NCBI GenBank assembly: GCA_030220185.1
Contig: JASPKZ010003441.1
Coordinates: forward strand, 930,001 to 994,000
Direction: 5' to 3'
Origin: Diploptera punctata
Taxonomy: Eukaryota > Arthropoda > Insecta > Blattodea > Blaberidae
DNA length: 64,000 bases
Below the pieces are notes generated by a model. The model was not told the DNA's origin, searched no databases, and was given only the letters and a program-made list of their open reading frames with translations. Within the stretch, counting starts at the first letter, position 1. Each line of letters starts with the position of its first letter. The position numbers and the translations under genes are program-made. This document shows positions 1,313 to 62,570 of the stretch, piece by piece.

Positions 1313-1757
1313 TTAGGAAGTGATATTTTGAGGTTATTTTAATTAAATTATTTTAGTCTGTTCATTTTACCTCAATATTAATGTTGATTTGTTCTTGAAC
1401 ATGTTTCGATTATATCATAATCATCGTCAGCATCGTGCCCAGATTTATGTTGTACACCCTGGATGTCGATGTTAGCTCCATCCTGTGGTTGGCCAAAGAA
1501 CCTCCAAACAAGGTCACGCTCAGTCGGTATTCCAAAATTCATAACTCTGTTTTTGTTCTTCTGAATATAGATTTTTTCCTAAATAGTCAGCTCTTTTGTA
1601 TTTTCTAACTTAATAATTTAGTGGCCAAATTTATATTACTCGTATGTTTTTCAGACCAAACATGAGCAGCAACTGCAGATTTTTCTATTTCCCCATTTTT
1701 AATATTTGTGTGTTCTTTGGTTCTAATTTTTAGGTTTCTTTTTGTTTTATAATAATA
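1313..1757 (-). mobile_element. PLE family A, 3' fragment
   Basis: Minus-strand remnant of the region after the GIY-YIG domain. It includes AAHVW-like residues, a WE(K)IYIRKN motif, a stretch matching the C-terminus at 4080-4200, then the terminal repeat with a hammerhead motif and AATATTGAGGTAA. It is a near mirror of 3905-4318 on the other strand, making the outer arm of a foldback. The frame is broken by substitutions. Confidence 0.75.
1391..1436 (-). ncRNA. Hammerhead ribozyme-like, PLE family A
   Basis: Minus strand reads CTGACGA, extra T, helix II GATTAT/ATAATC, GAA, palindromic helix III ACATGT, then T at the cleavage position. Core nucleotides are all canonical. Helix I is weak (1-2 bp), so activity may need dimerisation or tertiary contacts. 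Confidence 0.7.
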
Positions 1758-2068
1758 ATAAGAAATGTGCACTCAGGTTGAGCATTAGTGGTGGTTTAGT
1801 CTTTACTGTAGTCTGTAATGGTTTTTGTTCTTTTCGCACATGTTATGATGTGGTATTTCCTACATCTTTGTCCACATAACACACACTTGCATTCTTCGGT
1901 CGGCTCGTGGAATTCCTTGTTTATACATATTTTGTTGTGAAATCCATGTACTGCGAGTCCTGTTGTGACATGTCTCTGGGGGTTGCACTCTCTGGTCCAT
2001 CTGTCGTCTAGCATGGCAGTTGTGGTGTAGAAATCTATGTCTATTTCCTTCTTCTTCCTATTTTGTTT
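1758..2068 (-). other. Insertion with a Cys-rich reading frame of unknown origin
   Basis: About 310 bp that interrupt the PLE. The minus frame 2014-1796 (72 codons) has the cysteine/histidine pattern C-x-C-x2-C-x3-C-x2-YH-x4-C near its C-terminus and an N-terminal LDDRWTRECN. It looks like a zinc-binding tail, reminiscent of transposase C-termini, but I do not recognise the family. TSDs are not clear. Confidence 0.4.
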
Positions 2069-2123
2069 TATATTATATTATTTTTAGTCTGATCATCTTA
2101 CCTCAATATTAATGTTGATTTGT

Positions 2124-2164
2124 TCTTGAACATATTTCAAAACAATTCTGTTTTATCGTCAGCT
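2124..2164 (-). ncRNA. Hammerhead ribozyme-like, PLE family A
   Basis: Minus strand has CTGACGA, T, helix II AAAACA/TGTTTT with loop GAAT, then GAA and helix III ATATGT (one mismatch against the ACATGT palindrome), T at the cleavage site. It forms the left half of a divergent pair. Confidence 0.65.
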
Positions 2165-2179
2165 TTTCCAGACTGAAAG

Positions 2180-2223
2180 AGCTGACGATAAAACAGAATT
2201 GTTTTGAAACATGTTCAAGAACA
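2180..2223 (+). ncRNA. Hammerhead ribozyme-like, PLE family A
   Basis: CTGACGA, T, AAAACA/TGTTTT helix II, GAA, palindromic ACATGT, T. All core positions are canonical. It diverges from the copy at 2124-2164. Confidence 0.72.
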
Positions 2224-2299
2224 AATCAACATTAATATTGAGGTAAGATGATCAGACTAAAAATAATATAATTAAAATAACCTCAAAATATAACTTCCT

Positions 2300-2944
2300 A
2301 AAATTAAATATTATTCTTTTTGTTTTTCCTATATATATATCTTTTCACAACCTGTACATTCAATTTGATATATTCCTGATTTTTTATTTTTATCAGTTTT
2401 TTTAAAATTTTTGTTGGTTTTTATTAGTTTATTTAAACTGTAGTTTTTTTGGTGCTAATTTAATATTAAACTTCTCAAATATCTTTTGGAATTTATTGTG
2501 TGCCCAAGGGTGATAGGTGAATTTCCTATATTTTTTCATAGGTGGTTATTCTTTTTCAAGAGTACTTCTGTTTATCATTTTTTGTTTCTTATACCTTTCT
2601 ATCCTTTTGTGTACCATTTTTTCATCAAACCCGTTTTCTCTTGCTACTATGATTATGTGTTTTTTCTCCTGTTTGAAATCTTCTTTGTTTAAGGGTAAGT
2701 TTACCAATCCATGAGTTAAACTATTAAAAGCTGATAATTTATGTCCAATTGGATTGAACCCTGTTGATTTAATACAATTTTCCATATGAGTTTCTTTCCT
2801 ATGAATCCCAAATTCAGTTTTTGTTTTTTCTTCGTTTCTGAGCAATTTAAGATCCAAAAAGGGTATTTGTTTATTTTCTTCTATTTCTTTTGTAAATTTG
2901 GTGTTTGTACTCTGTAAATTTAACAGTTTTAGGGAATCTTCTAC
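2300..2944 (-). mobile_element. PLE family A, inverted 5'-truncated copy
   Basis: Minus-strand coding remnant of an RT C-terminal part (PFLDLKLLRNE), linker (FNPIGHKL, LVNLPLNKEDF) and start of a GIY-YIG domain (ending at GCEKIYI-like codons near 2330). It mirrors 3290-3870 and joins the + copy head to head near 2944. Confidence 0.8.
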
Positions 2945-3857
2945 ATGTTTTTCTTTTACAATACAAATGTATCATCTGCATTGAAGATATTGAACAACTG
3001 GTTAAATAAAAACAACATAGACAGAGAGATCAGAGAAGACTATTTGAAATTAACTGAGTTATGCATGTTTTTTACATTCAATGGGAGTTTCTATAGACAA
3101 AAATCAGGGCTCTCAATGGGAAACCAATTATCACCTTTCCTGGCAAATTTATTTATGAGCGATTTTGAATGTAAAATCACTAAAGCACATCCCATAATGT
3201 TTAAATTTTGGAGCAGATATGTAGATGACATAATTTGTATTGTAAAAGAAAAACATGTAGAAGATTCCCTAAAACTATTAAATTTACAGAGTACAGACAT
3301 CAAATTTACAAAAGAAATAGAAGAAAATAAACAAATACCTTTTTTGGATCTTAAATTGGTCAGAAACGAAGAAAAAGATAAATTGAATTTGGGATTCATA
3401 GGAAAGAAACTCATATGGAAAATTGTATTAAATCAACAGGGTTCAATCCAATTGGACATAAATTAGCAGCCTTTAATAGTTTAATTCACAGATTGGTAAA
3501 CTTACCCTTAAACGAAGAAGATTTCGAACAGGAGAAAAAACACATAATCAAAGTAGCAAGAGAAAACGGGTTTGATGAAAAAATGGTACTCAAAAGGATA
3601 GAAAAATATAAGAAACAAAAAATTATCAACAAAAGTACTCTTGAAAAAGAAAAGCCACCTATGAAAAAATATAGGAAATTCACATATCACCCTTGGGCAC
3701 ACAATAAATTCCAAAAGATATTTGAGAAGTTTAATATTAAATTAGCACCGAAAAATAACTACAGTTTAAATAAACTAATAAAAACCAACAAAAATGAAAA
3801 AAAAACTGATAAAAATAAAAAATCAGGAATATATCAAATTGAATGTACAGGTTGTGA

Positions 3858-3860
<3 letters not shown>

Positions 3861-3894
<34 letters not shown>

Positions 3895-3899
3895 TATAG
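3861..3899 (+). repeat. (TA)n microsatellite inside the YIG motif
   Basis: A TATATA tract that in other copies is only TATATA/CATAGG (Tyr-Ile-Gly) is here expanded to about 38 bp. It adds about ten Tyr/Ile codons and shifts the frame before KTKRNLK. Confidence 0.9.
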
Positions 3900-4230
3900 G
3901 AAAAACAAAAAGAAACCTAAAAATTAGAACCAGAGAGCACATCAGAAATATTAAAAATGGGGAAATAGAAATATCTGCAGTTGCTGCACATGTTTGGTTT
4001 GAAAAATATAATATAAATTCGGACACTAAATTATTAAGCATAAACATATTAGAAAATACAAAACAGCTGACTATTTAGGAAAAAATCTATATTCGGAAGA
4101 ACAAAAATAGAGTTATGAATTTTGAAATACCGATGGAATGTGATCTTGTTTGGAGGTTCTTTGGCCAACCACAGGATGGAGCTGACATCGAAATCCAGGG
4201 TGTACAACATAAATCTAACCAGTCTGGGCA

Positions 4231-4275
4231 AGATGCTGACGATGATTATGATATAATCGAAACATGTTCAAGAAC
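4231..4275 (+). ncRNA. Hammerhead ribozyme-like, PLE family A
   Basis: GCTGACGA, T, helix II GATTAT/ATAATC, GAA, palindrome ACATGT, T. It is the terminal ribozyme of the + copy and a mirror of 1391-1436. Confidence 0.72.
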
Positions 4276-4331
4276 AAATCAACATTAATATTGAGGTAAG
4301 ATGAACAGACTAAAAATATTTAACTTTCACA

Positions 4332-4490
4332 GGGAAAGAACACTATGAGGTTTAATTTAATAATTAAATTAATGTTTTTATTACCTCACCTCATATCCTT
4401 TTTCTTCTATACTGCAGTTTCGGAGCTTATCTCCATCATCAGTAGCCTCTGGTCGACCGGTAATAAAAACATTAATTTAATTATTAGACT
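4332..4490. mobile_element. PLE family D terminal foldback
   Basis: About 150 bp bounded by TAATTTAATAATTAAAT and its inverse. The inner part is ATGAGGTGAGGTAA on the minus strand plus one hammerhead. There are no coding residues. Confidence 0.65.
4404..4450 (-). ncRNA. Hammerhead ribozyme-like, PLE family D
   Basis: Minus strand has helix I CTA, CTGATGA, T, helix II GGAG/CTCC, GAA, perfect palindrome ACTGCAGT, cleavage nucleotide A, and helix I return TAG. Every canonical core nucleotide is present. Confidence 0.8.
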
Positions 4491-9016: not shown

Positions 9017-9067
9017 GTTTTTGGCTGAAAATGGGAGAGATGTCCTTTGAAACATGTTCCAAGTGAG
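9017..9067 (+). ncRNA. Decayed hammerhead-like motif upstream of CMTR2 exon A
   Basis: Helix I TTGG/CCAA, CTGAAAA (G8 replaced by A, with C3 retained), T, an imperfect helix II, GAA, palindrome ACATGT, T. The unpaired G8A change makes cleavage doubtful. Confidence 0.4.
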
Positions 9068-9639: not shown

Positions 9640-12600
9640 TAAGTACCTTGGTCGAAAGAGTGACGATCTTTCACCGTAAAAATACAACCGTCAAGAAATG
9701 CGGACATGGGTTCTACTGGGGTAAAATTTTCCGGAGGTCAAATAGTCCCCCATTCGGTTCTCCGGGCGGGGACTACTTCAGGGAACCCATGCCAAAGGCT
9801 CAAACACAGGGACATGTTCCTAGGAACATGGAATGTTAGGACTTTATACAATAGTGGGGCACTAGAGATATTAACGCGGGAATTGGATAAATCGCCCTTG
9901 GATATAGTCGCTTTACAGGAAGTTAGGTGGCCAGGAGAAGGTAGTCAGGAATCAGGAAGCTTTTCATTATACTATGGGGGTGCAGAAAGACCTGCATTTG
10001 GAACGGGTTTTTTTAGTCAGAAGGAGGATCCTATCCGCTATCCGAGATATTAAGTTTGTTAGTGATAGGATATCATACATAATTCTAAAGGGTAAACGAC
10101 ATGATTTTATAATTGTAAATGTACATGCCCCCACAGAAGATAAAGATGACAAGATCAAGGATGAGTTCTATGAAGAATTAGAATGCTTATTTGATAGCCT
10201 TTCACGATATCATATGAAAATTGTCTTAGGAGATTTTAATGCAAAAGTGGGGCGGGAAGATATATTCAAACCAACAATAGGCAAATTCAGTCTTCATGAA
10301 GATAGTAACGACAACGGGGTTAAGATTAGTCACATTTGCCACATCAAAGAATCTCATTGTTAAGAGCACAACATTTCAGCATAAGGATATTCATAAATAC
10401 ACCTGGACGTCCCCAGATGGAGAAACTCGGAACCAGATAGATCATGTATTAGTGGATAAACGCTGGCACAGTAGCATCATTGATGTTAGATCAGTTAGAG
10501 GGACAGACTGCAATTCAGATCATCATCTGGTCAGGGTGAAAATCAGACAACGGCTATCGCTTATGAGAGGAACAAACGCTAAAGATGATTCTGTAAAATA
10601 TGAATTAAAAAACTTGAAAAATGATGAAATGCGGCAAGAATACCAAATCGAAATTGCTAATAGATTTGAAGTACTGGGATCTTCTGATGACAATGTGGCA
10701 AACGAAGAAGAAACTGATATAAATAAAGAATGGGAGGCTATAAGAGATACTATTAAATTGTCAGCATCAGAAAGCATTGGTTGTTTAAAAAAGAGGCAAA
10801 ACAAGAAATGGTTTGATGAGGAATGTGCCGACATTGTAAAGAAAAGAAAGCTAGCAAAAATGAAATGGTTACACGAGCCAAATGAGGTAAATTTAGAGCA
10901 ATTGGGTAGTGTTAGGCGGGAAACCACCAAGTTACTAAAGAGTAAAAAGAGGGAATATTTGAGAGAGAAGATTAACGATCTTGAAATGAATGCAAAACAT
11001 AGGAACATTAGAGAATTATATCAGGGAATTAGTATAGAGAAGAAGGGGTTTCAGGCTAGAACAAACATAATTCGGAATGAAAAATGGGGATATGATTGCA
11101 GATTCCAAGAGTATATTAAATAGATGGAAAAGTTATTTTAATCAGCTATTAAATGTACATACAGAACAGGACATTGAGGAGGATAAGTTACAGACAGCAG
11201 AAATGCTAGTCGCAGAGCCAAGTGCATTAGAGGTTGAAATGGCAATTGAAAAATTGAAGATGTATAAAGCATCAGGTTCAGATGAGATCCCAGCAGAACT
11301 GATAAAATCAGGGGGAGAAAAATTGATGGACAAGATACGCTGGTTGCTTAGTATGATTTGGGAAAAAGAAGCTCTTCCAGACGAATGGAAGGAATCAATT
11401 ATTGTACCAATTTATAAGAAAGGAGATAAAACTGATTGCAACAACTATAGGGGCATCTCATTACTTTCAACTTCGTACAAATTCTAACAAATATATTAGT
11501 AAGCAGACTTACTCCCTATATTGATGACATTCTAGGAGATCATCAATGTGCATTTAGAAGAAACAGGTCTACAACAGATCAGATTTTTAGTATAAGACAG
11601 ATTTTAGAAAAGAAATGGGAATATAATGGTACTGTGCATCAACTATATGTAGACTTCAAAAAAGCATATGATTCAATTAAGAGGGAGAAGTTATATAGTA
11701 TCCTGCTGGAGTTTGGAATTCCTAAAAAGTTAGTTAGACTTATTCGAATGTGTCTAAATGGCTCAACGAGTAGGGTGCGTGTAGGCAAACAGTTTTCAGA
11801 CACTTTTGAAATCCAGAATGGGTTAAAGCAAGGAGATGCACTATCTCCTCTACTATTTAATTTTGTACTAGAGCATGCCATTAAATCTTTAGAGAATGAG
11901 GAAGGCTTACAACTCAATGGTATTAATAAGCTGTTAGTTTATGCTGATGATGTAGTACTACTGGCCGATAGCGAGGAGATACTGAAGGCCAACACGCACA
12001 CACTATTGAGTAACACTAAGAAATTAGGACTGGAAGTAAATATCAGTAAAACTAAATATATGGTCACACGTAGAAATACATTATATAATGGAAATGGACA
12101 GCTAATGACAAATGAGGGAAATTTTGAGGAATTGGCTGAATTCAAATACCTAGGAACAATAATCACAAATAGGAATGAGATGCACAAAGAAATTAAACAT
12201 AGGCTCAATTCTGGAAATGCATGCTATTATGCATTGCAGAGACTTTTGATGTCCCAACTCCTTTCAAAAAACGTTAAGCTGAAAATATATAAAACTATTG
12301 TTCTACCAGTTATACTACATGGGTGCGAAACATGGACTCTTACTTTAAGGGAGGAAAGGAGATTACGAGTATTTGAGAATAAAGTTCTTAGGAAAATTTT
12401 TGGACCAAAGAGAGATGAACAGACAGGTGAATGGAGAAGACTACATAACAATGAACTACATGGTCTTTATAGGAAGCCAGATATAATAAGAACAGTTAAG
12501 TCCCGTAGACTGCGATGGGCAGGACATGTTGCACGTATGGGGAATGAAAGACGTGCATGGAAACTTCTTGTAGGAAAGCCAGAAGGAAAACGCCCAGTTG

Positions 12601-12773
12601 GTAGACCAAGAATGAGGTGGGAGAACAACATTAACTATGATTTGAGGGAAGTAGATTATACAGGGAATGATTGGAAAACATTAGCTCAGGATAGGGATGT
12701 ATGGAGAGCTTATGTCCGTGCGGCCATGAACCTACGGGTTCGATAGTGCCAGTGAGTAAGTAAGTAAGTAAGT
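9640..12773 (+). mobile_element. RTE-like LINE, nearly full length, multiply frameshifted
   Basis: One ORF broken into frames. Endonuclease start 9706-10053 (GTWNVRTLYNSGALE, LDIVALQEVRWPG). Middle 9974-10363 (VNVHAPTEDKDD, IVLGDFNAKVG). Endonuclease end and connector 10296-11123 (YTWTSPDGETRNQIDHV, CNSDHHLV). RT start 11077-11487 (ASGSDEIPAELIK, PIYKKGDKTDCNNYRGISL). RT core and C-terminus 11634-12746 (VDFKKAYDSI, GLKQGDALSPLLFNF, LVYADDVVLLAD, FKYLG, GRPRMRW, YVRAAMNLRVR). Motif C is YADD. The 3' end has a TAAG repeat (GTAAGTAAGTAAGTA), a typical RTE-type tail. At least four frameshifts make it inactive. Confidence 0.88.
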
Positions 12774-12775: not shown

Positions 12776-12980
12776 AGGAAAAATCACTATGAGGTTTAAT
12801 CCAAGATTTAAATTATCTTACCTCATATCAAGTCTTCTAATTGTACCAGTTTCAAAACCTAGGTGGATCCATCTTAGTAATGTTTCAAGTGATGTTATGT
12901 CGTTCAGAGAACTGCTTCTTACTTATTAATTAGAAGACTGGTTTTGAGGTGAGGTATAAAGAATTTTAATTTAAATCGTA
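12776..12980. mobile_element. PLE terminal foldback, decayed
   Basis: ATCACTATGAGGTTTAATCC and an inverted GAGGTGAGGTATAAAG enclose a minus-strand ribozyme remnant near 12838-12890 (core CTAAGAT, lacking G5). Inserted directly behind the LINE tail. Confidence 0.5.
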
Positions 12981-13379: not shown

Positions 13380-15325
13380 ATCTTCTTCCTTCTATCAGTG
13401 GACCGATGAACCTCTGGATCAAATAAAAATTTGCAGGAGTTTTGAAATTCATGAGTTTATCTTTCTTGTTTTTTTTTGGATGTTGATTTTTTCCCAGACT
13501 GTGAGTTCTTTCTGTTTATCTGTGTGTTTGATTAGGTTAGCTTTTGTATCAATTAAATGTTTTTCAGATCAAGCATGGGCTGCTACAGCTGACTTGTCCA
13601 CTTCACCCTTTTTTTTTACATTTCTAAGGTGTTCTTTCAATCTGGTTTTTAAATTTCTTTTTGTTTTTCCTATATAGATTTTGTCGCAATCCTTACATTT
13701 GATCTGATATATTCCTGATTTGTATTCTTCTCCAATTTTTTCATTTTTGTTGGTTTTAATTATTTTGTTTAGGCTGTATTCATTCTTTGGGGCCAAACGA
13801 ATGTTAAACTTATTGAAAATTTTCTGGAACTTGTGGTGTTTTAAAGGATGGTAAGTGAAATTTTTTAATCTTATGTTCTCTTCTGTTTGTTTTTTTAAGT
13901 GTGCTTTCTCATTGATTAGTTTTTGCCTTTTAAACTTATTTATTTTCTTGTGTACCATGTTTTCTTCATAACCATTTTCTATTGCTACTTTAATTATGTA
14001 TTCTTTTTCTTATTCATATTTTTCACGGTTCAGGGGTACATTCACCAATCTCTGTGTTAGACTATTGAATACAGCTTCTTTGTGAGCGAAATGATTGAAT
14101 CCTGATGTCTTAATGTAGTTATCTTTATGTGTGTTCTTTCAGTATATTCCAAATTCTATTTTGTTTTTTTCGTTTCTAGTTAGGGTTAGATCCAAAAATG
14201 AAATTTGTCTGTCAGTTTCAGTTTCCATTGTGAATTTTACAGTTTTGCTCTGAAGGTTCAGGAGTTTTAAGGCATCTTCTATTTGTTTATGGTTTACAAT
14301 AGCTATTATATCGTCAACATATCTGCACCAAAATTTGAAAATTAATGGGTGTCCCTTTGTTATTTTCTGTTCAAAACTATCATGAATAAATTAGCCAGAA
14401 AGGGAGATGGGGGGGGGGGGTTCCCCATGGAAAGTCCAAAATTTTGTTTGTAGTATTTTCCATTATATGTGAAAAACATTTGTTCGATGTACAATTTTGT
14501 CATAATGATGCATTCTTCTATCTTTTCCTTTTCTAAATTATTATTCGTTAACCATTTTTCCAGAATTTCAATGGTGGTTTCTCTTGGGATACTGGGAAAC
14601 AATGAAACTACATCAAAAGAAACTAACCTGTCAGTTGGTTCTAATTCTGTGTTCTTGAAATTCTCTATCAATTCTAATGAATTGTCGATTGAAAGGTTCT
14701 CAAACCCTCCCATATTCTTATATTTGCTACATAACCATCTAGATATCTGGTATGTAGGAGACCCTATGCAGTTGATAATGGGTCTCATTTTGTTTCCTTC
14801 CTTATGTGTTTTTGGGAGGCCATGCATATTAGGGTTTTTAGGGTTGGGAACCTTTAGGTAAAACTTTTTTTGTTTGGTTAGGATTTTGTTTACATTCTTT
14901 AGGGTGTTGTCCACCTCTTTGATGTATTTCAGAAGTGGGTCGGATTTAATTTCGGTGTATTCAGTTGATTCCAAAAGACTGTTCATTCTATTTTTATAAT
15001 CAACAATGTCCATGATTACTACTTGATTTCCTTTGTCAGCTTTTGTGACTATTATATTTTTCTTGTTTATTCCTTTGATGATTTTCATTTTCCCTTTCCC
15101 GTTTTGTTTATAGGAATTTCTTTGATCTCCTCTATTATTTTTATGCATTCATTCCTAATCAAGACCTTCTCTTCCATGTTCATTTCTTCTATGACTATTT
15201 CTATGTCTGCTACGTAATCATCTATATTGTTTGAGAAGTTCACACATGTTTTTAGGCCTTGTTCCAATATTTGCATTTCTTTTGTGCTAAAATTTTGGGA
15301 AGACAAATTTACTACATTATTAATT
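13380..15325 (-). mobile_element. PLE, nearly full length, RT and GIY-YIG
   Basis: Minus strand, N- to C-terminal. N-terminal helix region (15306-15085, LSTKEMQILEQGLKTC). RT 15148-14360 (IVTKADKGNQVVIMD, MHGLPKTHKEGNKMRPIIN, RLVSFDVVSLFPSIP). A poly-G/C tract replaces GNPLSPF. Then a broken frame with YVDDI (about 14320-14300), and a linker. GIY-YIG 13958-13569 (GIYQIKCKDCDKIYIGKTKR, LKEHLRNVK). Several frameshifts and a stop near 14140 inactivate it. It is the best view of the PLE N-terminus on this strand. Confidence 0.88.
14410..14421 (+). repeat. Poly-G tract in the RT catalytic region
   Basis: An uninterrupted run of G residues where other copies encode Asn-Pro-Leu-Ser-Pro. On the coding strand it reads Pro-Pro-Pro-Pro, giving GLSMGNPPPPSPFLANLF in place of GNPLSPFLANLF. 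Confidence 0.85.
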
Positions 15326-15363
15326 ATATTATTTTTAGTCTGGACATCTTACCTCAATATTAA

Positions 15364-16687: not shown

Positions 16688-16770
16688 TTAATAGACTAAA
16701 AATAATATAATTAAAATAACCTCAAAATATAACTTCCTAAAATTAAATATTATATTACTATATTATTTCC

Positions 16771-17224: not shown

Positions 17225-17311
17225 GTATTTAACTTTTATAGGAATTAATCACTATGAGGTTTAATTTATGGTGAAATTAAATGTTTCTTACCTCTCCTCA
17301 TATAAATTTTC

Positions 17312-17359: not shown

Positions 17360-17452
17360 TCTTGGCGACGGATGTTATGTCAATTGTAAGAAACTCCACC
17401 AACAGAGGGAAGAAGAAGAGTTTCTTCCAATCGACATAACATTCATTGCCAA

Positions 17453-47183: not shown

Positions 47184-47229
47184 AACATGTCTGAAGAAGG
47201 TACAGTGTACCGAAACAGCTGTCACTGAA
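47184..47229 (+). ncRNA. Hammerhead ribozyme-like, PLE family 3, upstream of exon E
   Basis: CTGAAGA, A, helix II GGTAC/GTACC, GAA, ACAGCTGT, C. Sense strand of CMTR2, about 125 bp before the exon E acceptor. Helix I is weak. Confidence 0.73.
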
Positions 47230-47354
47230 TTATATAATAAATATGAAAATCAAATAAAACTACGTTTTATTTTTATTTAATTAATAAATATGGATTTTCA
47301 TCAAGTAAACACCAACTCAATTGATGATTTATGTAATGCTTTTATTTTGAACAG

Positions 47355-47529: not shown

Positions 47530-47587
47530 GTAAGTTATGCTATATCAATACAAACACAACCATTTTAATGATGTATTTATTATTAAT

Positions 47588-49569: not shown

Positions 49570-50720
49570 TTCACCTGAAAGGTCCGTCTCCTCAACTTAA
49601 TTATCATTTAACTGTAGCGCTTTCGGGACTTGTCCCATCATCGGCAGGATTCAAAAACTGGTGTTTCACTGAAGATCTGGTAGAGGGGGTTGCATGTATT
49701 TGGTTCGTTTTCGTTTATCAGGCTGTCGTTGTGAGCTGCTTTCATGATTTCCATCTCTTCGAGTACATTTATCTTCGCTGGATTATTTTCTCTGTGCATT
49801 ACTGTTAGGGTGTTTTCAATATTTAACATGCGATGTCCTTCATGGATGACGTGTTTTGCATAGCTTGATTTACCTTCTGCATGAATGAAGTCTCGAAAAT
49901 GTTCTTTGAATCTGATGTTAAAACTCCTGTTTGTCCTTCCTATATAAAATTTGTTGCAGTCCTTACATGTCAGTTTATAAACTCCTTTGCTGTTGAAAAT
50001 GTTATTTTCTTCAATGTTATTGTTTATTATGTTGTTTAATTTGTTATTGGTTCTGTATGCTATTTTTACGTTTTTATCGGCTTTCTTTAGTGCATTGGCT
50101 AATTTTGTCGTTTCTTTTCCTGTGTATGTAAGTGTTATCCATGTTTTCTTGTTGTTGTCAGATTCTTTTTCTAGTTTAGTTATGTTGGTTATGTTGTTCT
50201 TCCTTTTTTGTTTTTTTACGAGTTTATCTATGAATTCTTCATTATAGCCATTGGTTTTTTGCCATATACTTAATGTAGTTGAGTTCTTGGATATAATTGT
50301 CTTTGCTTAATGGGAGTTTCAACATTCTACTGACTAAGCTATTAAATGTACTAATTTTCTGTTGAAAAGGGTGTGTAGAATTTTTGTTTATGGCCAGAGC
50401 ATTGTTTGTGGGTTTCCGGTAGATACCGATTTCTAGTTTGTTGTTGTGTAGATTTTTGGTTATAGACAAATCTAAGTAGTTTATGCTGTTGTTAACTTCT
50501 ATTTCTTCGGTGAAAGTGATTTTTTCATGCATGTTGTTTAAGTCTTGTAGTATTTCTTTTTCTTTTCTGTTTTCATTTTCATATATTACTAGTACATCAT
50601 CGACATATCGTGTTATTAGTTTTATGTTGAATTTGTGTATTAGTTCCTCAAAATGTTTATTTTCCAGTTCTTGTAGGAAGATTTCTGCCATTATTCCCGA
50701 TGGGGAGTCCTACATTGATT
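49570..50720 (-). mobile_element. PLE family 4, 3' two-thirds
   Basis: Minus: RT end and linker 50691-50242 (MAEIFLQELENKHFEELIH, RYVDDVLVIYE, NYLDLSITKN, YRKPTNNALAINKN). A frame break follows. GIY-YIG with KGVYKLTCKDCNKFYIGRTN and FKEHFRDF, then HVIHEGHRMLNIENTL to 49638. Ends with the ribozyme 49613-49648 and AGTTGAGGAGACGG. A distinct lineage from A-H and 3, resembling PLEs with a shorter GIY-YIG tail. Confidence 0.85.
49613..49648 (-). ncRNA. Hammerhead-like, PLE family 4, C4 variant
   Basis: Helix I CTG/CAG, core CCGATGA (U4 replaced by C), T, helix II GGGAC/GTCCC with 2-nt loop, GAA, palindrome AGCGCT, A at the cleavage site. Stems are perfect; U4C probably lowers activity. Confidence 0.65.
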
Positions 50721-53055
50721 AAACAATTAGGATTTATTGTTTTCGAAAATTTAATTAAAAATTTTTTCGAATTTTTAAATTATGAAATAAAGAAAAAAGT
50801 TAATAGACAGAAGAAGAAATTCATGAATTTGACTAAAAAATGCAAAATAGACACAAAGAACAGAATTAATTTTGAAGAAGAAGAAGTAAGAAATGATATA
50901 TCTGAAAGTTTCCAAAGTAAAATTACACTGAAGGAAGATAATGTAATTAATCTTTCTAAAGTAGCTTTGAAAAAAGAAGAACTTAGTTTGCTCAATCAAG
51001 GTTTAAAAACTTGTATTCAGATAATGTTGAAGATTTTGTTGCAGATATTGAAATTGCAATGGTTAGTTTAGAAAATGAAGAAAAAACAATCATTCGGAAA
51101 AGAAGTGAAAAAATTTTAGAAGAAATAAAAAACACTCCCAAAAATGTGTTGGCAAATAAAAATATGACCATTTTAAAAAGATAAACAACAAAAATTTAAT
51201 ATTTTCTAAAGCTGATAAGGGGAATAAAATAGTAATTTTAGAAAAATCTGAATATATCAAGAGGATGGAAAATCTTTTAGAATCAAAAGAATATTTGGAA
51301 CTAAAAAAGGATCCCCTACCAAAAACTATAAAAACTTTTGACAAAACTTTAAAAGAAATTGAGCATACAATTCCTGATACAGAAAAATGTAAATTGAAAG
51401 TCCCAAATTCTTCTAATCCTCGAATGTATGGTCTCCCCAAAATTCATAAAATTGGGAATAAAATGAGACCGATAATTAATAATATAGGGTCCCCGTCTTA
51501 TTATTTATCAAAATGGTTAGTACAGAAATTTAAAAGTTTTCCAGAATTTGAAAATAAAAGTATTGAAAATTCTTTACAACTAATTGATGAATTGAATAAC
51601 ATTAGAGTGGTTCATAATGATAGATTTGTGTCTTTCGATGTTGTTTCATTGTTTCCAAATGTTCCAATAAGAAAAATGTTATATTTTTTGGAAAAATGGT
51701 TGAGTTCTTTGGATTTAAATAAGGAAGAAATAGAAGAATACATTAAGCTTACAAAATGTTGTATTGAAAACTCCTATTTTACTTTAACGGTAAATTTTAC
51801 AAACAAGTTTCGGGTTTATCTATGGGAAATCCTCTTTCGCCTTTCTTGGCTAATTTATATATGAGTTACTTCGAGTGCCATATCACCAAGGCTTACCCAT
51901 GGATTTTCAAGAGTTGGTACAGATATGTTGATGATATTTTTTCGATAATAAATTTTAAACATGTTGATGATGCGTTGAAATTACTTAATCTACAAGATGT
52001 ATCAATTAAATTTACCATAGAATCAGAAATTGAAAACAAAATTCCGTTTTTGGATTTATACATAATTAGGAATGAAAAAACTCAAAAATTGAATTTGATA
52101 TATATAGGAAGGGTACACATACTGATAATTATATTAAATCAACAGGTTTCAATCCACTGGCACATAAACATGCAATATTTAATAGTCTCTTATATAGATT
52201 AATAAAGGTCCCATTAAAAGGAGAAAATTTTAAGAAAGAATATGAAAACATCCTAAATATAGCCAGATTAAATGGTTTTAAAAAGGATATAATATCTAAC
52301 AAATTAAAGAAATTCAGAAAGATAAAACAACTTAAAGAATGCTCTACCCTACAAATGGTTAGTAACGAAAAGAAGAATTTCAAGAAAATTACTTACCATC
52401 CAATAGTACATGGGAAATTTAAAAAAATTTGACAAATACAACATTACTTTGGCACCAATAAATAAATTTAGTCTGGAAAAACTTTTAAATACCAATAAAA
52501 AAATCAACATCCCAGACAGTAAGAAATCTGGAATTTATCAAATTAATTGTAATGATTGTAGCAAAGTATACATAGGAAAAACAAAAAGGAATTTAGAAAC
52601 ACGCACTAAAGAACATTTTAGAAATATTAAAAATTGTGAAATTGAAAAATCAGCAATTGCTGCACTAGTTTACTAGAACATCATAAAATTGAAAAAGAAG
52701 CGAAACTTTAAAACAGTTGGATAAACCGTTGGAATTGACAATTTGGGAATTGATATTCATTCAGAAGAATAAATATCGATCTATGAATTTCGATATTCCG
52801 GTGGATAAAAATTTAATTACAAAATTTATAATCCCAACGAAAGATGGCAGCACAAGAGGTGATGTCACTAAAGAAATCAACAATCACGGAATTTCATCAA
52901 TGGACGCCATGACTGATGAAGGACATGATTTTGTCTGAAACCGTCGGTATCAAAGAAGTTTGAAAATGTATGAGGTGAGTCAATTAAAATATGTTCTCCA
53001 TTCATTATTAATAATATAACCTCATAATGTTTACTTCCCGATATTAATTTAAAAA
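50721..53055 (+). mobile_element. PLE, nearly full length (N-terminus, RT, GIY-YIG)
   Basis: N-terminal helical part 50721-51180 (NRINFEEEEVRNDISESF, LSLLNQGLKTC). RT 51265-51864 (MYGLPKIHKIGNKMRPIIN, FVSFDVVSLFPNVP). A frameshift at about 51790 leads to 51822-52202 (MGNPLSPFLANLYM, RYVDDIFSI, IPFLDLYIIRNE). Another frameshift is near 52105. Linker, then GIY-YIG 52410-52676 (GIYQINCNDCSKVYIGK, KEHFRNIKN). A final frame 52717-52938 runs up to the ribozyme. Joined head to head with the unrelated family-4 PLE at about 50720. It gives the most complete domain order in the window. Confidence 0.9.
52907..52953 (+). ncRNA. Hammerhead ribozyme-like, terminus of the 50721-53055 PLE
   Basis: Helix I TGA/TCA, CTGATGA, extra A, helix II GGACA/TGTCT, GAA, helix III ACCG/CGGT with 1-nt loop, A. 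Core intact. Confidence 0.72.
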
Positions 53056-53989: not shown

Positions 53990-54815
53990 AAATTAATGTT
54001 GGGAAGTAAACATTATGAGGTATTAAGTTATGTAGATAGGAAATAACACTATGAGGTTTTTTAATATTGTTTATTTTTTATTATTTCACTCACCTCATAC
54101 TTCATAATTCATAGCAGACCCTGGGTTTCTTCACATCTTTTGTAACATTCTCAATGCTGCGTCACGTTCACAACTGACGTCCAACAGCCTTCTATCCTGC
54201 AGACTGACCTCCGCGCCATCTGGTGGCCGACCAAAGAATTTCCAAATCAGTCCTCTTTCTTTATAACCGGGTATTTCAAAATTCATAGTTGTATTTTCAT
54301 TCTTGCATATGTAAATTTTTTCCCAAATTGTGAGTTCCTTTGGTTTATCCAATTGTTTAAGTAATTTTGTTTTGGTTTCTATTCTATGTTTTTCTGACCA
54401 GGCATGTGAAGCTATTGCAGATTTTTCAGTTTCTCCATTTTTAACATTTCTGAGATGTTCTTTTAATCTTGTATTTAGATTCCTTTTTGTTTTTCCTATG
54501 TATATCTTTTCACAATCTTTACAATTAATTTGATAAATTCCCGATTTTTTGCAGTCTTCAATCTTTTCATTTTTGTTGGTTTTTATTAAATTACCTAAGC
54601 TGTAATCATTTTTCGGTGCTAATTTAATGTTGAATTTGTTGAAAATTTTTTGAAACTTGTCAAATACCAAAGGATGGTATGTGAACTTCTTGAATTTTTT
54701 GCCTATATTTTTATCTGTCTGAAGAGTACTTTCATTGATGACTTTTTGTTCTTTGAATTTATTTATTTTCTTGTGTATCATCTTCTTTTGAAAACCATTA
54801 TCCTTAGCTGATAAA
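53990..54815 (-). mobile_element. PLE family F, minus arm of foldback
   Basis: One open frame, about 54812-54131: NGFQKKMIHKKINKFKEQ, KFTYHPLVFDKFQKIF, GIYQINCKDCEKIYIGKTKR, LKEHLRNVKNGETEKSA, LTIWEKIYICKNENT. No frameshift in this arm. The first 20 codons of the longer frame (from 54868) come from reading the opposite arm. The ribozyme at 54111-54163 ends it. Confidence 0.87.
54111..54163 (-). ncRNA. Hammerhead ribozyme-like, family F, U3-A8 core
   Basis: Helix I AGCA/TGCT, core TTGAGAA, T, helix II with one change (TTACA/TGTGA), GAA, ACCC/GGGT, C. Confidence 0.6.
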
Positions 54816-55317
54816 AATATAGGCAAAAAATTCAAGAAGTTCACATACCATCCTTTGGTATTTGACAAGTTTCAAAAAATTTTCAACAAATTCAACATTA
54901 AATTAGCACCGAAAAATGATTACAGCTTAGGTAATTTAATAAAAACTAACAAAAATGAAAAGATTGAAGACTGCAAAAAATCGGGAATTTATCAAATTAA
55001 TTGTAAAGATTGTGAAAAGATATACATAGGAAAAACAAAAAGGAATCTAAATACAAGATTAACCTCCTCGGGCCCAAGGTGTTATGTTAAAAAAATTTTA
55101 ATAATTTTTGTGAGTTTTGTAGGCAAAAAAATACAAGATTTACGAAAAAACAATAATTTAGATTTCAGAATGATTTAATACTGTAAAAAGCCATGTAACC
55201 TATAGGTTACATTGGGTCTGAACATTATATTTTTAGATACAAGCTGACATTTCAAATATTCTGTAGAATTATATGTCAAGTTGTATACACTTAAAGGTAG
55301 TTGCACGCAGACTCACA

Positions 55318-55323
55318 CACACT

Positions 55324-55375
<52 letters not shown>

Positions 55376-55378
55376 CAT
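55318..55378. repeat. (CA)n/(TA)n microsatellite in piggyBac
   Basis: CACACA then TATATA run, then ACATACATACG. Confidence 0.9.
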
Positions 55379-55446
55379 ACGTACAGTATAAATTATTCTC
55401 AAATGGAACATTGAACAAATAAACAGAAACATGAAAAAAACTGTAG

Positions 55447-56470
55447 TTACAAATCATGGAAAAGTTTGAAACAATTTCGATTGGCATTCAAACAAAGAAA
55501 CACTTTACATGAGGAGCACATTGTTCTACACTTTGGACTGTCACAACCTGGGAAGCGACGAGAAGTCCGCACATTTTGTGGAATTTCAGGCATGTGTAAA
55601 TTTTGTTTTTTGCATAGACTCTCATGTGGGGGAGAGGAGTAACTGCTTTTCTCTTTTGAGGTAATCCCCCAAAAAACTGTCTCATCCTGATCACCATTGT
55701 CTTCTTCTGAAACTTTGGAGTTCAAAAGTGAATGTGCTACGTCTACTCGAAGATCCATGTAATCTAGCCTATCCTTCTTTGATGTTTTCTGTGATGTTTC
55801 AGCTCTTCTCTGTTCAACCCATGAAGCAGCCATTGCAAAATCTATTAGATGGAAAATCAATTAAACTGTCCACTTCTTAGTGCGTGCTGAAATCCTATAC
55901 ATTGAAATATTCCGATCCAAGAAGTCCTCACCTCCCATGTTTTCATTGTAGGCTTCTACTATCTTAGGCCGGTCAACTAAAATGTATTGCTTTTTTTTTT
56001 GCACCACCTTCTGCATTCACCAACAGGAGCTGTCCCTTCAACAGATGAAGCAAGTGTAACAGGTTTGTTGTCATACCATTTGACAACACAAACTTGGCCA
56101 TCATCTCGTACAACCATATCATGGGCACCTCTTCCTTCCTTCTTCAGTGATGTGTCGGTTTCCAACATATCTAAAGAATCTTGATATAGGATCTATCATT
56201 TCGGTTTCGGGTACATGGTCTGGTAAGGGTGCTGGAGGAAAATATCATTTCTTTTCCATATTCCTTCATATTCTGTAATCTCATTAGAATCTTCTTCACA
56301 TTCAGGATTTTCTTCTTCAGCACTTGCTTCAATCTCTTCAGGTTCCTTGTTAGTATATGGGACATGAACCAAGGAAGTCTCTACCACATCATTATCATCA
56401 GAAAGTTCTGATAAATCAGACACATCAGAATTATCTCCAAAAATCAGGTCTTCAATGTTTCTCCTAATTC
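55447..56470 (-). pseudogene. piggyBac transposase with deleted catalytic core
   Basis: Minus strand. Acidic N-terminus 56423-56196 (SDLSELSDDNDVVE). Then, directly, the C-terminal third 56168-55977 (VVRDDGQVCVVKWYDNKPV, a piggyBac V-x-K-W-x-D-x-K block), IVEAYNENMGGEDFLDR, and 55860-55447 (HLIDFAMAASW, a Cys-rich end CRTMCSSCKVFLCLN, NCFKLFH). A stop after KKWTV and the missing catalytic region make it non-functional. The CRD that binds terminal repeats is still readable. Confidence 0.87.
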
Positions 56471-57213
56471 ACTCCTGTAATAAGAGAAAAACCCATTAGA
56501 AAAGTTGCTATATTTAGAACCCATTGTAACCTATAGGTTACACATTCATAAAAGATGCAATAGATTGATGGGATATGCACATTTAAAATGTATAACCAAT
56601 TTTATAATACACAGTATGTATCAGTAATTAACATGCATTTTTTTCAGAATTTTTAAACATGATAGAATGACTGTAAATAATACTTACTTTCTCTGCGGCG
56701 CGAAAACCTTCCTTTGTTAGTAGCAGCCATTTTCTAATAGCCAGCTGTAGAAAAATATGTTGAAATAATTAATCAAACCAAATACTGAATGCTAGTACAC
56801 TCTCTTGAGAATACTTTGGAGCTATTTGAAATCAACTTCATTGCTCTTAGCCAAAGTTATGAGAGTGGGAACTTGTGTAACCTATAGGTTACATGAGGCC
56901 CGAGGAGGTTAAAAGAACACCTCAGAAATGTTAAAAATGGAGAAACCGAAAAATCTGCAATAGCTGCACATGCCTGGTCAGAAAAACATAGAATATAAAC
57001 CAAAACAAAATTACTTAAACAATTGGAAAAACCGAAGGAACTCAAAATTTGGGAAAAAATTTACATATGCAAGAATGAAAATACAACTATGAATTTTGAA
57101 ATACCCGGTTATAAAGAAAGAGGACTGATTTGGAAATTCTTCGGTCGGCCACCAGATGGCGCGGAGGTCAGTCTGCAGGATAGAAGGCCGTTGGACTTCA
57201 GTTGTGAACGTGA

Positions 57214-57265
57214 CGCAGCATTGAGAATGTCACAAAAGATGTGAAGAAACCCAGGGTCTGCTATG
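57214..57265 (+). ncRNA. Hammerhead ribozyme-like, family F, U3-A8 core
   Basis: Helix I AGCA/TGCT, TTGAGAA, T, helix II TCACA/TGTGA, GAA, ACCC/GGGT, C. Pairs divergently with 54111-54163. Confidence 0.62.
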
Positions 57266-57355
57266 AATTATGAAGTATGAGGTAAGTGAAATAATAAAAA
57301 ATAAACAATATTATGAGGTATAATCATTAAAATTCATCGGAGAACATATTGTTTA

Positions 57356-57662: not shown

Positions 57663-57701
57663 ACATATTGTTTAAACAACTCACCTCATAGGATTCATGC
57701 T

Positions 57702-57752
57702 TCCATGATATCGCAATTTCAAACATAGTCATGTTCATCTTTAGCCATAACT
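57702..57752 (-). ncRNA. Hammerhead-like, family B, G5 mutated
   Basis: Core CTAAAGA (G5 changed to A), T, helix II GAACAT/ATGTTT, GAA, ATTGCGAT, A. Loss of G5 should abolish cleavage. Confidence 0.6.
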
Positions 57753-57844
57753 CCGACTGACGAAATTCTTCAGCCGTCAACTATTCTATTGTCGCCATCT
57801 TCAGTGCTGCCATCTATGGTTGAATTTATGAACTTCGAAATCAA

Positions 57845-58042
57845 TTGATTTCGAAGTTCATAAATTCAACCATAGATGGCAGCACTGAAGATGGCGACAA
57901 TAGAATAGTTTTTATTTCGAAGTTCATAAATTCAACCATAGATGGCAGCACTGAAGATGGCGACAATAGAATAGTTTTGATTTCGAAGTTCATAAATTCA
58001 ACCATAGATGGCAGCACTGAAGATGGCGACAATAGAATAGTT
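57845..58042 (+). repeat. 66-bp tandem triplication within PLE C-terminal coding
   Basis: TCGAAGTTCATAAATTCAAC begins at 57851, 57917 and 57983. 66 bp equals 22 codons, so the frame (ISKFINSTIDGSTEDGDNR) is kept through all three. Other family B copies have one. Confidence 0.9.
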
Positions 58043-58069
58043 GACGGCCGAAGAATTTCGTCAGTCGGA

Positions 58070-58119
58070 GTTATGGCTGAAGATGAACATGACTATGTTT
58101 GAAATTGCGATATCATGGA
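58070..58119 (+). ncRNA. Hammerhead ribozyme-like, PLE family B
   Basis: CTGAAGA, T, GAACAT/ATGTTT, GAA, ATTGCGAT, A. Core intact. Confidence 0.72.
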
Positions 58120-58189
58120 AGCATGAATCCTATGAGGTGAGTTGTTTAAACAATATGTTCTCCGATGAATTTTATTGAAATGTTATGTC

Positions 58190-58935
58190 TATCTTAAAAA
58201 AAACACTTTGAACAATTGAAGTCTATATATGACAGAAATAAAAATTTTTTGCCACTGCAACGGTTCTTCGTGACAACGGTTGTGAAAGTATTGAGGATGG
58301 AAATGAATAAGGTCCCAAAAACGGTCTAAGTAGAAGGAGAATATGAGGTGAGGTGATATAATTAATATATATTGTATTATATTGTAAGCCTATGTTTTCC
58401 CTTTACACAGATTTAGGCGCTCTCCCCCTACAGAGAAGAATTTGAACCATACTAATTTAGTTACACTTGTTAGTGAGTCATAAACTCTGTAATCTTCAAG
58501 CAAAGAACTGCAGTTTCAAGAGGTATCTCACTCATCTTCAGCCATTTTTATGACTGTTGAATTTTGGTTATACCTACATTTTCAAAGTGCCATCTGGATC
58601 ATACTAGAGAATCATAAAATTGAAAAGAAGCTATTGAAACAATTGGAAAAACCCTTGGATTTGAAAGTTTGGGAAAAGATATACATTAAAAAGAACTAAT
58701 TTAGATCCATGAATTTTGAAATTCCCAGCCAGTAAGTTCATAAAATCAACATCAGGGGCAGCTTTGAAGATGTAGCTGTAGACCGAAATTGAACAGTTGT
58801 AAAAATGGCTGAAGATGAGAGAGATGCACTTCTATGCCTGAATATCTCGAAGTTTATGAGGTGACATTTTACGACTCACTATTTATTAGTTATTAAATAA
58901 CTCATAGTGTTAATTCCTAAAATGTCAAATTTATT
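58190..58935. mobile_element. PLE remnants with decayed termini
   Basis: 58255-58365: a terminus with GAGGATGGAAATGAATAAGG and ATATGAGGTGAGGTG. 58440-58920: minus terminus then a plus C-terminal piece (EHHKIEKK-like, LEKPLDLKVWEKIYI, NFEIPSQ), ending AAGTTTATGAGGTGAC. Confidence 0.6.
58497..58546 (-). ncRNA. Hammerhead-like motif
   Basis: CTGAAGA, T, irregular helix II, GAA, perfect ACTGCAGT, T. Helix I weak. Confidence 0.5.
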
Positions 58936-60539: not shown

Positions 60540-60592
60540 AAAAATGGTGCCTAGCTGATTGATGCATAATATCGTCCAAATGTGGTAATTTC

Positions 60593-60637
60593 TTGAAGAC
60601 TATAGTTTCAATATGCTACATATCATTATCAATTCTT
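60593..60637 (-). ncRNA. Hammerhead ribozyme-like, family G, U3-A8 core
   Basis: Helix I GAA/TTC, core TTGATAA, T, helix II GATATG/CATATT, GAA, palindrome ACTATAGT, C. Confidence 0.65.
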
Positions 60638-60655
60638 TCTAACTAGTAAGTTACA

Positions 60656-60700
60656 AAGAATTGATAATGATACCCACGTATCGAAACTATAGTCTTCAAG
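60656..60700 (+). ncRNA. Hammerhead ribozyme-like, family G, U3-A8 core
   Basis: Helix I GAA/TTC, TTGATAA, T, helix II GATAC/GTATC, GAA, ACTATAGT, C. Best-preserved U3-A8 copy. Confidence 0.7.
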
Positions 60701-61002
60701 AAATCTACAATTATGAGATGAGTTGTTAAAATTCTAACTTTCTATTAAATAAAATGAACCTCATAATGTCATTTCCTTTAAATATTAAGTGTAAAATGTA
60801 CTGGTTACCAATCTGATAAATCCTGTTTCACAAACAGAAACTACACTACTTTTAGCCGTTAGCAATGCCTCCTCTATTCATTGCATTAGTACATGACTCG
60901 TAGCTTTGTTGAATTGTTGTTCTGTAATATTATTCTTTAGCAAAGTTGACAAATTCATCGGAGAACATATTGTTTAAACAACTCACCTCATAGGATTCAT
61001 GC

Positions 61003-61053
61003 TTCCATGATATCGCGATTTCAAACATAGTCATGTTCATCTTCAGCCATAAC
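61003..61053 (-). ncRNA. Hammerhead ribozyme, PLE family B, intact
   Basis: Helix I TTATGG/TCATGG, CTGAAGA, T, GAACAT/ATGTTT, GAA, perfect ATCGCGAT, A. Confidence 0.8.
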
Positions 61054-61102
61054 TCCGACTGACGAAATTCTTCGGCCGTCAACTATTCTATCGTCAGTCG
61101 GA

Positions 61103-61152
61103 GTTATGGCTGAAGATGAACATGACTATGTTTGAAATCGCGATATCATGGA
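61103..61152 (+). ncRNA. Hammerhead ribozyme, PLE family B, intact
   Basis: Identical in core and stems to 61003-61053, on the other strand. Confidence 0.8.
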
Positions 61153-61252
61153 AGCATGAATCCTATGAGGTGAGTTGTTTAAACAATATGTTCTCCGATG
61201 AATTTTAATGATTATACCTCATAATGTTTACTTCCCAACATTAATTTAATAT

Positions 61253-61989
61253 GACAAATTCATTTAAAAAAAATTATTGGCAATTATTTATCGTCAACCA
61301 ACAATTTCATTCAATCTGAATTCTGGCATCACTCCTAACGGGAATTTCCTTATATTAAAGAAAAATTAAAACAACCTAAATTCAAAATGTATCATCACAT
61401 TGTTTTTGCAAGTATCATTTTCTAAACATTTGCTGAATTTTTTTAAGTTAATCAAGTGACATCACACATTGTTACAAGCTATATCAAGTTTTAAAACATG
61501 TTGAAAATAGTCACCCAGTACAAGATATCCTATCCGACCAAAATCCAATAAACACTAGTCATAAATGATGTTTTTATTATTAATTTAACATTTCTCAATG
61601 AAAGATATTACTAGTCATAAAGTTAGTAACGGTCATTTTAGTTAGTGTTTTAAATTAAAAACTGATTAATGTATATGTGAAATATTATTGGTTATATGTT
61701 TGTGCTAACAGAAATGAGACCCAACTAAAAACCTATGTTAAACAAAAAGAACAATGAAGGTTAGTATGATATTTCGGTTTATTAGCTTTTTAAATTTTAA
61801 GAATGATGTGTGCAAATGTGAATTAAACACACATATAATTTTTTACATTCAAACCAGGAGTAGAACCTCGAATCTCACCTCGACTTCTGGTTCAAACATA
61901 ATTTTTCTTTCTATTATAAAACTATATTAATTTCTGAAAACTGTTAATTTAAAATATAACATCAAAATCAAATATAGTTACTTATTGTG
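61253..61989. other. Mostly unassigned; fragment of tRNA array tail
   Basis: 61564-61612 has TTTATTATTAATTTAACATT and TCTCAATGAAAGAT, the junction of the 305-bp unit, without a tRNA. Otherwise nothing is recognised. Confidence 0.4.
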
Positions 61990-62315
61990 AGACTTTTTTT
62001 TCAAGCACGACAGGCCTAGAAGGCCCTAAGCCAACCAGCCGCTGCTGCCTCACATCCACATGTGTCAATCACAGAGGTAGACAATCATCTAGCCAGTGTA
62101 GGGTCTCCCAGCCATTATAGCAGGTCTTCTCAACCTGGAGTCACTACTTATTGTAGCTACTCAAATGCTTCACGATTCTGGGTGGGCACCGGTCCCATAC
62201 GGACCGAAATTACATGAGAAAATTTCTTCCCCCATGAGGACTCGAACCTGTGCAATTCCTGTAGCTCTGCGCCAAGGCTTCTTGCCTTAACCACTTGGCT
62301 ATGGCTCGGGACTAT
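61990..62315 (-). mobile_element. SINE B, full copy
   Basis: Minus strand: head GAGCCATAGCCAAGTGGTTA with GGTTCGAGTCCTC (62310-62230), body with CAATAAGTAGTGACTCCAGG, CCCTACACTGGCTAG, end GGCCTTCTAGGCCTGTCG. Reference copy for the family. Confidence 0.85.
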
Positions 62316-62339
62316 TTTGAGACTATACATTTAAAATTC

Positions 62340-62570
62340 ATTGTTGAATTTTAAAATTTGTACCTGATAAAATAGTTGTCCTCAACTTTATTAACTTTTG
62401 TTGTATAGTGTCGTCACACTATTAAAATCTAGGCCTTTCAAAGAGCATGTTTCATCTTTAGGATGAGAAATCCTGAGGATGAAGCATGCTCTTTGAAAGG
62501 CCTAGATTTTAATAGTGTGATGACATTATACAACAGAAGTTGAGGACAACTATTTTATCAGGTAGGAATT
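62340..62570. mobile_element. Family I terminal foldback
   Basis: Mirror arms (AAATAGTTGTCCTCAACTT and AAGTTGAGGACAACTATTTT) around about 62460. GTTGAGGA replaces the ATGAGGTGAG end of other families; family 4 has a similar end. Confidence 0.75.
62466..62510 (+). ncRNA. Hammerhead ribozyme, family I, intact
   Basis: Helix I AAATC/GATTT, CTGAGGA, T, helix II GAAG/CTTT, GAA, perfect palindrome AGGCCT, A. The mirror copy (about 62415-62460, minus) has CTAAAGA, losing G5. Confidence 0.78.

Follow-up and report, generated by a model that had tools for sequence, protein, structure and literature searches.

The window analysed here, 64,000 nucleotides of Diploptera punctata contig JASPKZ010003441.1 (assembly GCA_030220185.1, positions 930,001 to 994,000, forward strand), holds many copies of Penelope-like elements (PLEs) together with motifs resembling the hammerhead ribozyme (HHR), a large part of which lie in head-to-head inverted pairs. 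At the right edge of the window, a reverse transcriptase (RT) domain and a C-terminal GIY-YIG domain share one open frame, and this domain pair defines canonical PLEs (PMC11167929). The protein has 227 homologs; among the 120 listed, the rows carrying an organism name are insects, and the highest-identity one is from Diploptera punctata, with 62% identity across 47% of the query. PLE pieces fall, by our own grouping, into 26 stretches, many of them inverted relative to one another, and inverted-repeat pairs of at least 40 nt number 241 (25 of which were displayed). HHRs follow PLE 3' ends at 4228 and 52905, the latter after PLE pieces 50925-52818 (+), and others lie in inverted arms; pair A surrounds two inverted, 5'-truncated PLE fragments whose 3' ends face its two HHRs. 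Together with the RT and GIY-YIG homology, this supports the placement at PLE ends that a first-pass annotation, made from the sequence alone, had given the motifs. The HHRs occupy the pseudo-long terminal repeat (pLTR) part of many PLE copies in an insect-type genome.

Both strands were scanned with a descriptor consisting of CTGANGA, helix II, GAA and a palindromic A...T helix III, with one core mismatch tolerated. It returned 26 hammerhead-like motifs, against a mean of 0.525 and a maximum of 2 in 40 dinucleotide shuffles, and 20 of the 26 have the perfect CTGANGA and GAA core, which was found in none of the 40 shuffles. Two one-mismatch matches, 691 (-) and 9347 (-), are absent from the covariance-model list and were dropped. 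An earlier descriptor with a stricter closing rule gave 7 matches, some of them chance AATT or ATAT palindromes, and was replaced. The covariance model was built from nine sequences of eight families, families C, I and K being excluded as multiple alignments misaligned K and I, or C. It gave 40 matches at E<=10 and 31 at E<=0.0051, the E-values being rough. Nine of these 31 are the model's own training sequences and eight belong to families or branches outside it (4402, 52905, 9017, 49607, 58801, 31985, 62465 and 12836), with 58801 a decayed J copy and 52905 related to family E. The final list holds 37 copies in 17 families, decayed copies included: the 31 matches, pair R (E 0.11 and 0.15) and four copies added by homology (the left arm of K and three of L). 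The list does not include seven other model matches, with E between 0.13 and 8.7, or a G-like copy at 58273 (+) that has decayed. The division into 17 families is our own, and A/B, E/M and C/G/N are mutually related. The PLE coding regions, ribozyme copies and insertions are as follows, with the searches that recovered a copy named where they apply.

1390-1438 (-), HHR A, left arm of inverted pair A, descriptor and model; its partner is 4228-4276 (+)
4228-4276 (+), HHR A, right arm, descriptor and model; after the 3' end of PLE fragment 2951-4150 (+)
2121-2170 (-) and 2174-2223 (+), HHR B inverted pair, descriptor and model
4402-4450 (-), HHR C, palindrome ACTGCAGT, descriptor and model match (C not in the model)
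9017-9066 (+), HHR P, core CTGAAAA, model match (P not in the model)
12836-12885 (-), HHR Q, core unrecognisable, model match (Q not in the model)
13473-17002 (-), PLE coding pieces jointly covering residues 4-683 of homolog P0002 and interrupted by 1.5 kb
17215-17554, insertion D, HHRs at 17310-17362 (-) and 17452-17504 (+, AAA replacing GAA); 12-bp direct repeat CCGTAATCTTGT at 17215 and 17543
19301-19350 (-), HHR B copy, descriptor and model
19391-20248, pair E19, HHRs at 19509-19560 (-) and 20133-20184 (+)
20919-22937, pair F1, HHRs at 20919-20967 (-) and 22889-22937 (+), enclosing PLE fragments
31900-32098, palindrome N, decayed HHR at 31985-32038 (+)
32119-32524, insertion E32, HHRs at 32229-32280 (-) and 32403-32454 (+); 16-bp direct repeat TTGTTAAATGTATATT
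36537-36586 (-), HHR B copy, descriptor and model
37462-38322, insertion L37, HHR-like at 38220-38275 (+, core TTGAGAA), PLE at 37584-38113 (+), left arm shortened; 13-bp direct repeat TATGTTAATATTA
41874-41926 (-), HHR G, palindrome ACTAGT, descriptor and model
44959-45010 (-), HHR H, altered core (GAT, H17 = G), descriptor and model
46227-47337, insertion F2, HHRs at 46294-46342 (-) and 47183-47231 (+); 12-bp repeat GATTTATGTAAT
49607-49652 (-), HHR I, core CCGATGA, palindrome AGCGCT, descriptor and model match (I not in the model)
52905-52957 (+), HHR M, model match
54012-57321, insertion L54, HHR-like near 54110-54170 (-) and at 57215-57270 (+), core TTGAGAA; exact 12-bp direct repeat ATTATGAGGTAT
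57701-58120, pair E57, HHRs at 57701-57752 (-, CTAAAGA) and 58069-58120 (+)
58498-58844, pair J, HHRs at 58498-58549 (-) and 58801-58844 (+, decayed)
60590-60702, pair R, HHR-like at 60590-60640 (-) and 60653-60702 (+), core TTGATAA, palindrome ACTATAGT
60947-61263, insertion E61, HHRs at 61003-61054 (-) and 61102-61153 (+); 12-bp repeat TGACAAATTCAT
62422-62512, pair K, HHRs at 62422-62460 (-) and 62465-62512 (+), palindrome AGGCCT
62740-63999 (+), PLE reverse transcriptase and GIY-YIG open frame (RVT_1 and GIY-YIG domains), running off the window

Because helices II and III were built into the descriptor, helix I, which the strict scan does not demand, and the families outside the model serve as independent tests of the fold. 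Helix I is paired at 33 of 44 positions in 11 families, compared with 22.1 after permutation (0 of 20000 permutations reaching it). In the alignment of the nine model sequences, 88.9% of the cells are paired versus 64.3% after shuffling, and 28 cells are double-changed versus 10.5, with neither value reached in any of 500 shuffles; shifting the partner by one to three columns lowers the pairing to 29-50%. Two weaker measures gave 9 pairs with a double change versus 6.6 (24 of 500 shuffles) and 20 pair types versus 15.2 (12 of 500). The first-pass annotation had reported over 30 hammerhead-like motifs, belonging to ten or more families whose stems covary. Both numbers are exceeded in our list, the covariation is borne out by the alignment statistics and the helix I test, and the hammerhead-type fold is supported by the descriptor scan, the covariation and the covariance model alike. 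All nine helix III palindromes that it named occur in the window, and each of the three sites that it proposed for a cleavage assay contains a motif, at 41874-41926 (-), 32229-32280 (-) and 62465-62512 (+).

The conserved core CUGANGA ... GAA with A15.1-U16.1 is complete in the 20 perfect matches. In a strict scan, all 20 matches have exactly one extra nucleotide between A9 and helix II (offsets 0, 2 and 3 gave none), so that the canonical junction is present in none of them and the motifs are a variant rather than a canonical hammerhead. A viroid hammerhead with one inserted core nucleotide, which is said to cause weak activity, is mentioned in PMC11014351. In the window, most families have a U as the insert, and F and M have an A. 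We take the viroid in question to be CChMVd, with an extra A after A9. Taken as a whole, the motifs are very probably PLE-type variant hammerheads, with type I topology, a very short, loopless and palindromic helix III, the single insert between A9 and helix II, and copies arranged in inverted pairs. They resemble the minimal type I hammerheads of PLEs (Cervera and de la Pena 2014; Lunse, Weinberg and Breaker 2017) in their pLTR location, in having hardly any helix III and in possible dimeric cleavage, as summarised in the reviews PMC7761336, PMC6155905 and PMC6466107. They differ in that the window contains 17 families in 64 kb and in the constant extra nucleotide. One of the two studies just named reportedly describes core insertions. 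Since minimal hammerheads in PLE pLTRs and their dimeric cleavage are already published (PMC7761336, PMC6155905, PMC6466107 and PMC6431247), the ribozymes add many families to a published class.

The core overlaps two further sequence signals. G8-A9-U-G10.1, or its A8 variant, spells ATG in 13 of the 17 families, and a splice-donor-like GAGGTRA is present in 12 of the 17. Counting against a shared start codon, the frame from the core ATG is open to the donor-like site in two of the 13 ATG-bearing families, E and H alone. The core ATG as a coding start in all families was therefore rejected; a coding role in most of them is doubtful, and both splicing and translation from the core ATG are at most suggested by the sequence. 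An overlap of this kind is known from PAc, a Poseidon PLE of Anolis carolinensis, whose HHR overlaps the start of the open reading frame with C3 and G8 before the ATG and stem II from the ATG (PMC11167929), whereas in the window the ATG frame is closed by stops in most families. In the tails, TGAGGTRA is followed by ACCTCA within about 20-45 nt in 13 pattern matches, some overlapping, for example at 61166-61221 (+), 32161-32216 (-) and 52971-53024 (+); the two could form a stem closing over the putative splice donor.

Several points weigh against reading the motifs as hammerheads. Our custom covariance model gave the matches listed above, but Rfam returned no hammerhead among 17 matches at gathering score or 60 at E<=10, the 17 being tRNAs and the lower-scoring rows mostly miRNA families far below their cut-offs. 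Helix I has just 1-2 bp in A, B and F. When the helix III requirement is removed, core matches at offsets 0/1/2/3 number 3/24/0/3. The core or GAA is altered in every copy of H, I, L, P, Q and R (6 of the 17 families), and also in the single copies E57L, D 17452 and the left arm of K. In L and R the core reads TTGANAA, where U3 and A8 replace C3 and G8 and the 3-8 pair would be kept, while at 9017 (+) G8 alone has changed to A; the U3-A8 core may be a product of decay or may still work, possibly as a naturally occurring compensatory form of the hammerhead core, and a literature search on the hammerhead ribozyme with C3-G8, limited in coverage, found no paper on it. The motifs might accordingly be conserved 5' PLE sequence or palindromes that only resemble hammerheads, an idea to which the Rfam result, the spread of families with altered cores and the in vitro insertion of RNA with a dead HHR by a PLE protein (PMC11167929) lend something. 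We consider it highly improbable, as families with dissimilar stems keep their pairs through double changes, the invariant part is precisely the hammerhead core, and coding cannot explain the conservation because the frame is closed in most families.

Of the 14 cases in which copies of one family are neighbours within 3.5 kb, 13 have -/+ order, a head-to-head arrangement in which the HHRs and tails face outward; the sole exception lies between two different E pairs, and no direct case was found. The density of motifs that the first-pass annotation had found striking does not stem from a single array: it reflects numerous PLE insertions, and a large share of these hold an inverted pair of copies. 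This inverted-pair architecture, the constant extra core nucleotide and the frequent overlap with an ATG and a donor-like site are points that the annotation missed. For 14 pairs, the longest direct repeat across the outer edges was compared with a null drawn from random positions in the window. A repeat of at least 12 bp flanks nine of the 14 pairs (null 0.0025 each), and six of the nine repeats (those of D, E32, L37, F2, L54 and E61) are free of specific doubt. Inspection by eye gave an 11-of-12 repeat for F1, outside the formal measure, and the longest edge repeats of A and B are 11 and 9 bp. The target duplication of L54 is corroborated by an empty site, as joining its flanks yields a stretch of 73 nt that spans the junction, holds the 12-bp repeat once and is identical to the E61 tail. 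The left repeat copy of E61 shares 8 nt with the element end and, by eye, the short-tail element ends of D, E61, L37 and L54 overlap the flanking repeat by a few bases, as if the target end had annealed to the template. At the centre of E57 lies a 66-bp unit repeated three times (57845-58042).

The tails are of two lengths, with end points shared among loci of families E, F and L and likewise shared by A and B. Scoring by eye was possible for ten pairs (A, B, D, E19, F1, E32, L37, F2, L54 and E61), each of which combines a long tail with a short one, an outcome with a probability of at most about 0.001 if the two arms chose independently. The arms themselves differ in some pairs. E32L is 96.6% identical to the copy at 19452-19600 and E32R 96.0% identical to that at 58029-58177, whereas the two arms are 91.9% identical to each other; a helix II pair has changed between them in compensatory fashion, C-G to U-A, and the tree places them in different groups (support 90/87), so that E32 seems to join arms of two subfamilies. 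By eye, compensatory changes in helix II also separate the two arms of R. The B arms look homotypic because they share sites against other B copies. We make no claim of mixed arms for F1 and F2, where sites conflict and some lie at tail boundaries, for L54, whose arms carry 8 and 7 private differences, or for E19, whose arms fail to form a clade in the best tree but give p 0.093 in the approximately unbiased (AU) test.

These observations suggest that an inverted pair may be a single insertion made by two-sided target-primed reverse transcription, with two RNAs, two start sites, a duplication of about 12 bp and sometimes mixed subfamilies, a reading to which we assign a probability of about 0.5 (lowered from 0.55 because the E19 repeat proved doubtful). 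Apart from this reading, the motif would cleave in the RNA after H17, probably weakly, either as a dimer formed through the palindrome or assisted by the PLE protein, both of which have been published for other PLEs. In the two-sided insertion, the protein would nick both target strands about 12 bp apart, and one RNA would be reverse-transcribed from each target 3' end, starting at the distal site on one strand to give the long tail and at the proximal site on the other to give the short tail. The two truncated cDNAs would then be joined head to head, leaving one insertion per inverted pair. The repeats and tails are observed; from them we infer the nicking, the two templates and the joining. 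Several of these steps have counterparts in vitro: the PAc protein, which has RT and GIY-YIG domains, cleaves and extends both target strands, and reverse transcription starts internally at two sites bounding an optional tail (PMC11167929). In the same study, the PLE HHR overlapping the start codon cleaved only when protein was present, and HHR mutants still inserted. PAc is described there as tandem, whereas the window shows inverted pairs, which are the genomic footprint that we would expect of two-strand extension.

The strongest competitor is self-priming, in which fold-back on one PLE template makes the inverted pair (Arkhipova and colleagues 2013); PMC3846280 puts forward self-priming on an antisense template as the origin of head-to-head pLTRs. 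It would suit the window in so far as a homotypic origin is conceivable for most pairs and the identity of some arms reaches 99-100% (E61 100% over 115 and E57 98.9% over 182), with 54463-54715 and 54810-55062 also 100% identical. We nevertheless find it doubtful, since arms from a single template should share both subfamily and tail end: the tails are discordant in every scorable pair, E32 seems to mix two subfamilies, and the R arms have their compensatory changes. Two nicks and two RNAs fit better than self-priming because of the regular tail discordance, the repeats that flank pairs as units and the mixed E32 pair. Two separate insertions, or a later inversion or recombination between neighbours, would be easy to imagine in a region full of nested PLE insertions and repeats such as this one, with its many inverted-repeat pairs and PLE stretches. 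Such a history is unlikely given the nearly uniform -/+ orientation, the flanking of several pairs as a unit by one direct repeat and the single empty site.

Two-sided priming itself has to be held against a number of results. Three of the nine repeats are doubtful, those of K and N because their arms are self-similar and that of E19 because it is a 12-bp run of AT that does not abut the expected end of the tail but lies a few bases further out. No flanking repeat was found for E57 or J by the direct-repeat measure at the outer edges, nor for R, which was measured separately (6 bp). The tails of five pairs, E57, K, N, J and R, were not scorable (13 pairs were displayed for scoring). The AU test does not reject a clade of E32L and E32R (p 0.051, 144 columns), and at two sites, by eye, E32R agrees with E32L and not with E57 and E61. 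Finally, no difference in start site between the two strands was reported for PAc (PMC11167929).

The closest published genomic counterparts are the endonuclease-containing Penelope families of Adineta vaga, which, according to PMC3846280, have head-to-head inverted pLTRs, target duplications of 8-10 bp with none in some copies, and a 31-bp tail that is optional on one inverted pLTR. That paper prefers self-priming on an antisense template, whereas the window favours two templates and two target strands. Two other kinds of element were rejected. Terminons, the telomeric giant PLEs, do not agree with the window, as none of its 18 tandem-repeat rows has a telomere-type unit and the endonuclease domain is present. 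Retrozymes are recognised by direct tandem HHRs a few hundred bp apart that bound a non-coding unit (PMC7761336), whereas same-family neighbours in the window are inverted in all but one case and never direct.

The inverted-pair insertion signature is what the window adds beyond the ribozymes, and it matters more than the ribozymes themselves. The Discussion of PMC3846280 leaves the origin of head-to-head inverted PLE copies open, and the main text of the 2024 in vitro study, which established both-strand extension, does not discuss inverted genomic copies (PMC11167929). A limited literature search found no paper joining Penelope, head-to-head copies and target-primed reverse transcription, and the matches of a likewise limited search on Penelope-like, inverted and twin priming concerned other matters. 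If true, two-sided priming would replace the self-priming model, and its signature (a repeat flanking the whole pair, a long tail combined with a short one, and perhaps arms of two subfamilies) makes the question countable genome-wide in any PLE-rich animal genome.

The window also contains repeats of other kinds. A non-PLE reverse transcriptase occupies 10281-12746 (+), with an RVT_1 match in 11451-12743; the open frame upstream of it, 10281-11120 (+), has no Pfam match. We take this reverse transcriptase to be of the long interspersed nuclear element (LINE) type. Sequences resembling tRNAs, 17 by Rfam and 15 by ARAGORN (11 with serine anticodons), are located at 27739-28691, at 47566-48234 and at single sites. 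They are probably tRNA-derived repeats, and some are arranged in tandem with a unit length of about 300 bp. A 39-bp unit is repeated 2.9 times at 45040-45151, next to HHR H and close to a tRNA-like insert within a PLE fragment.

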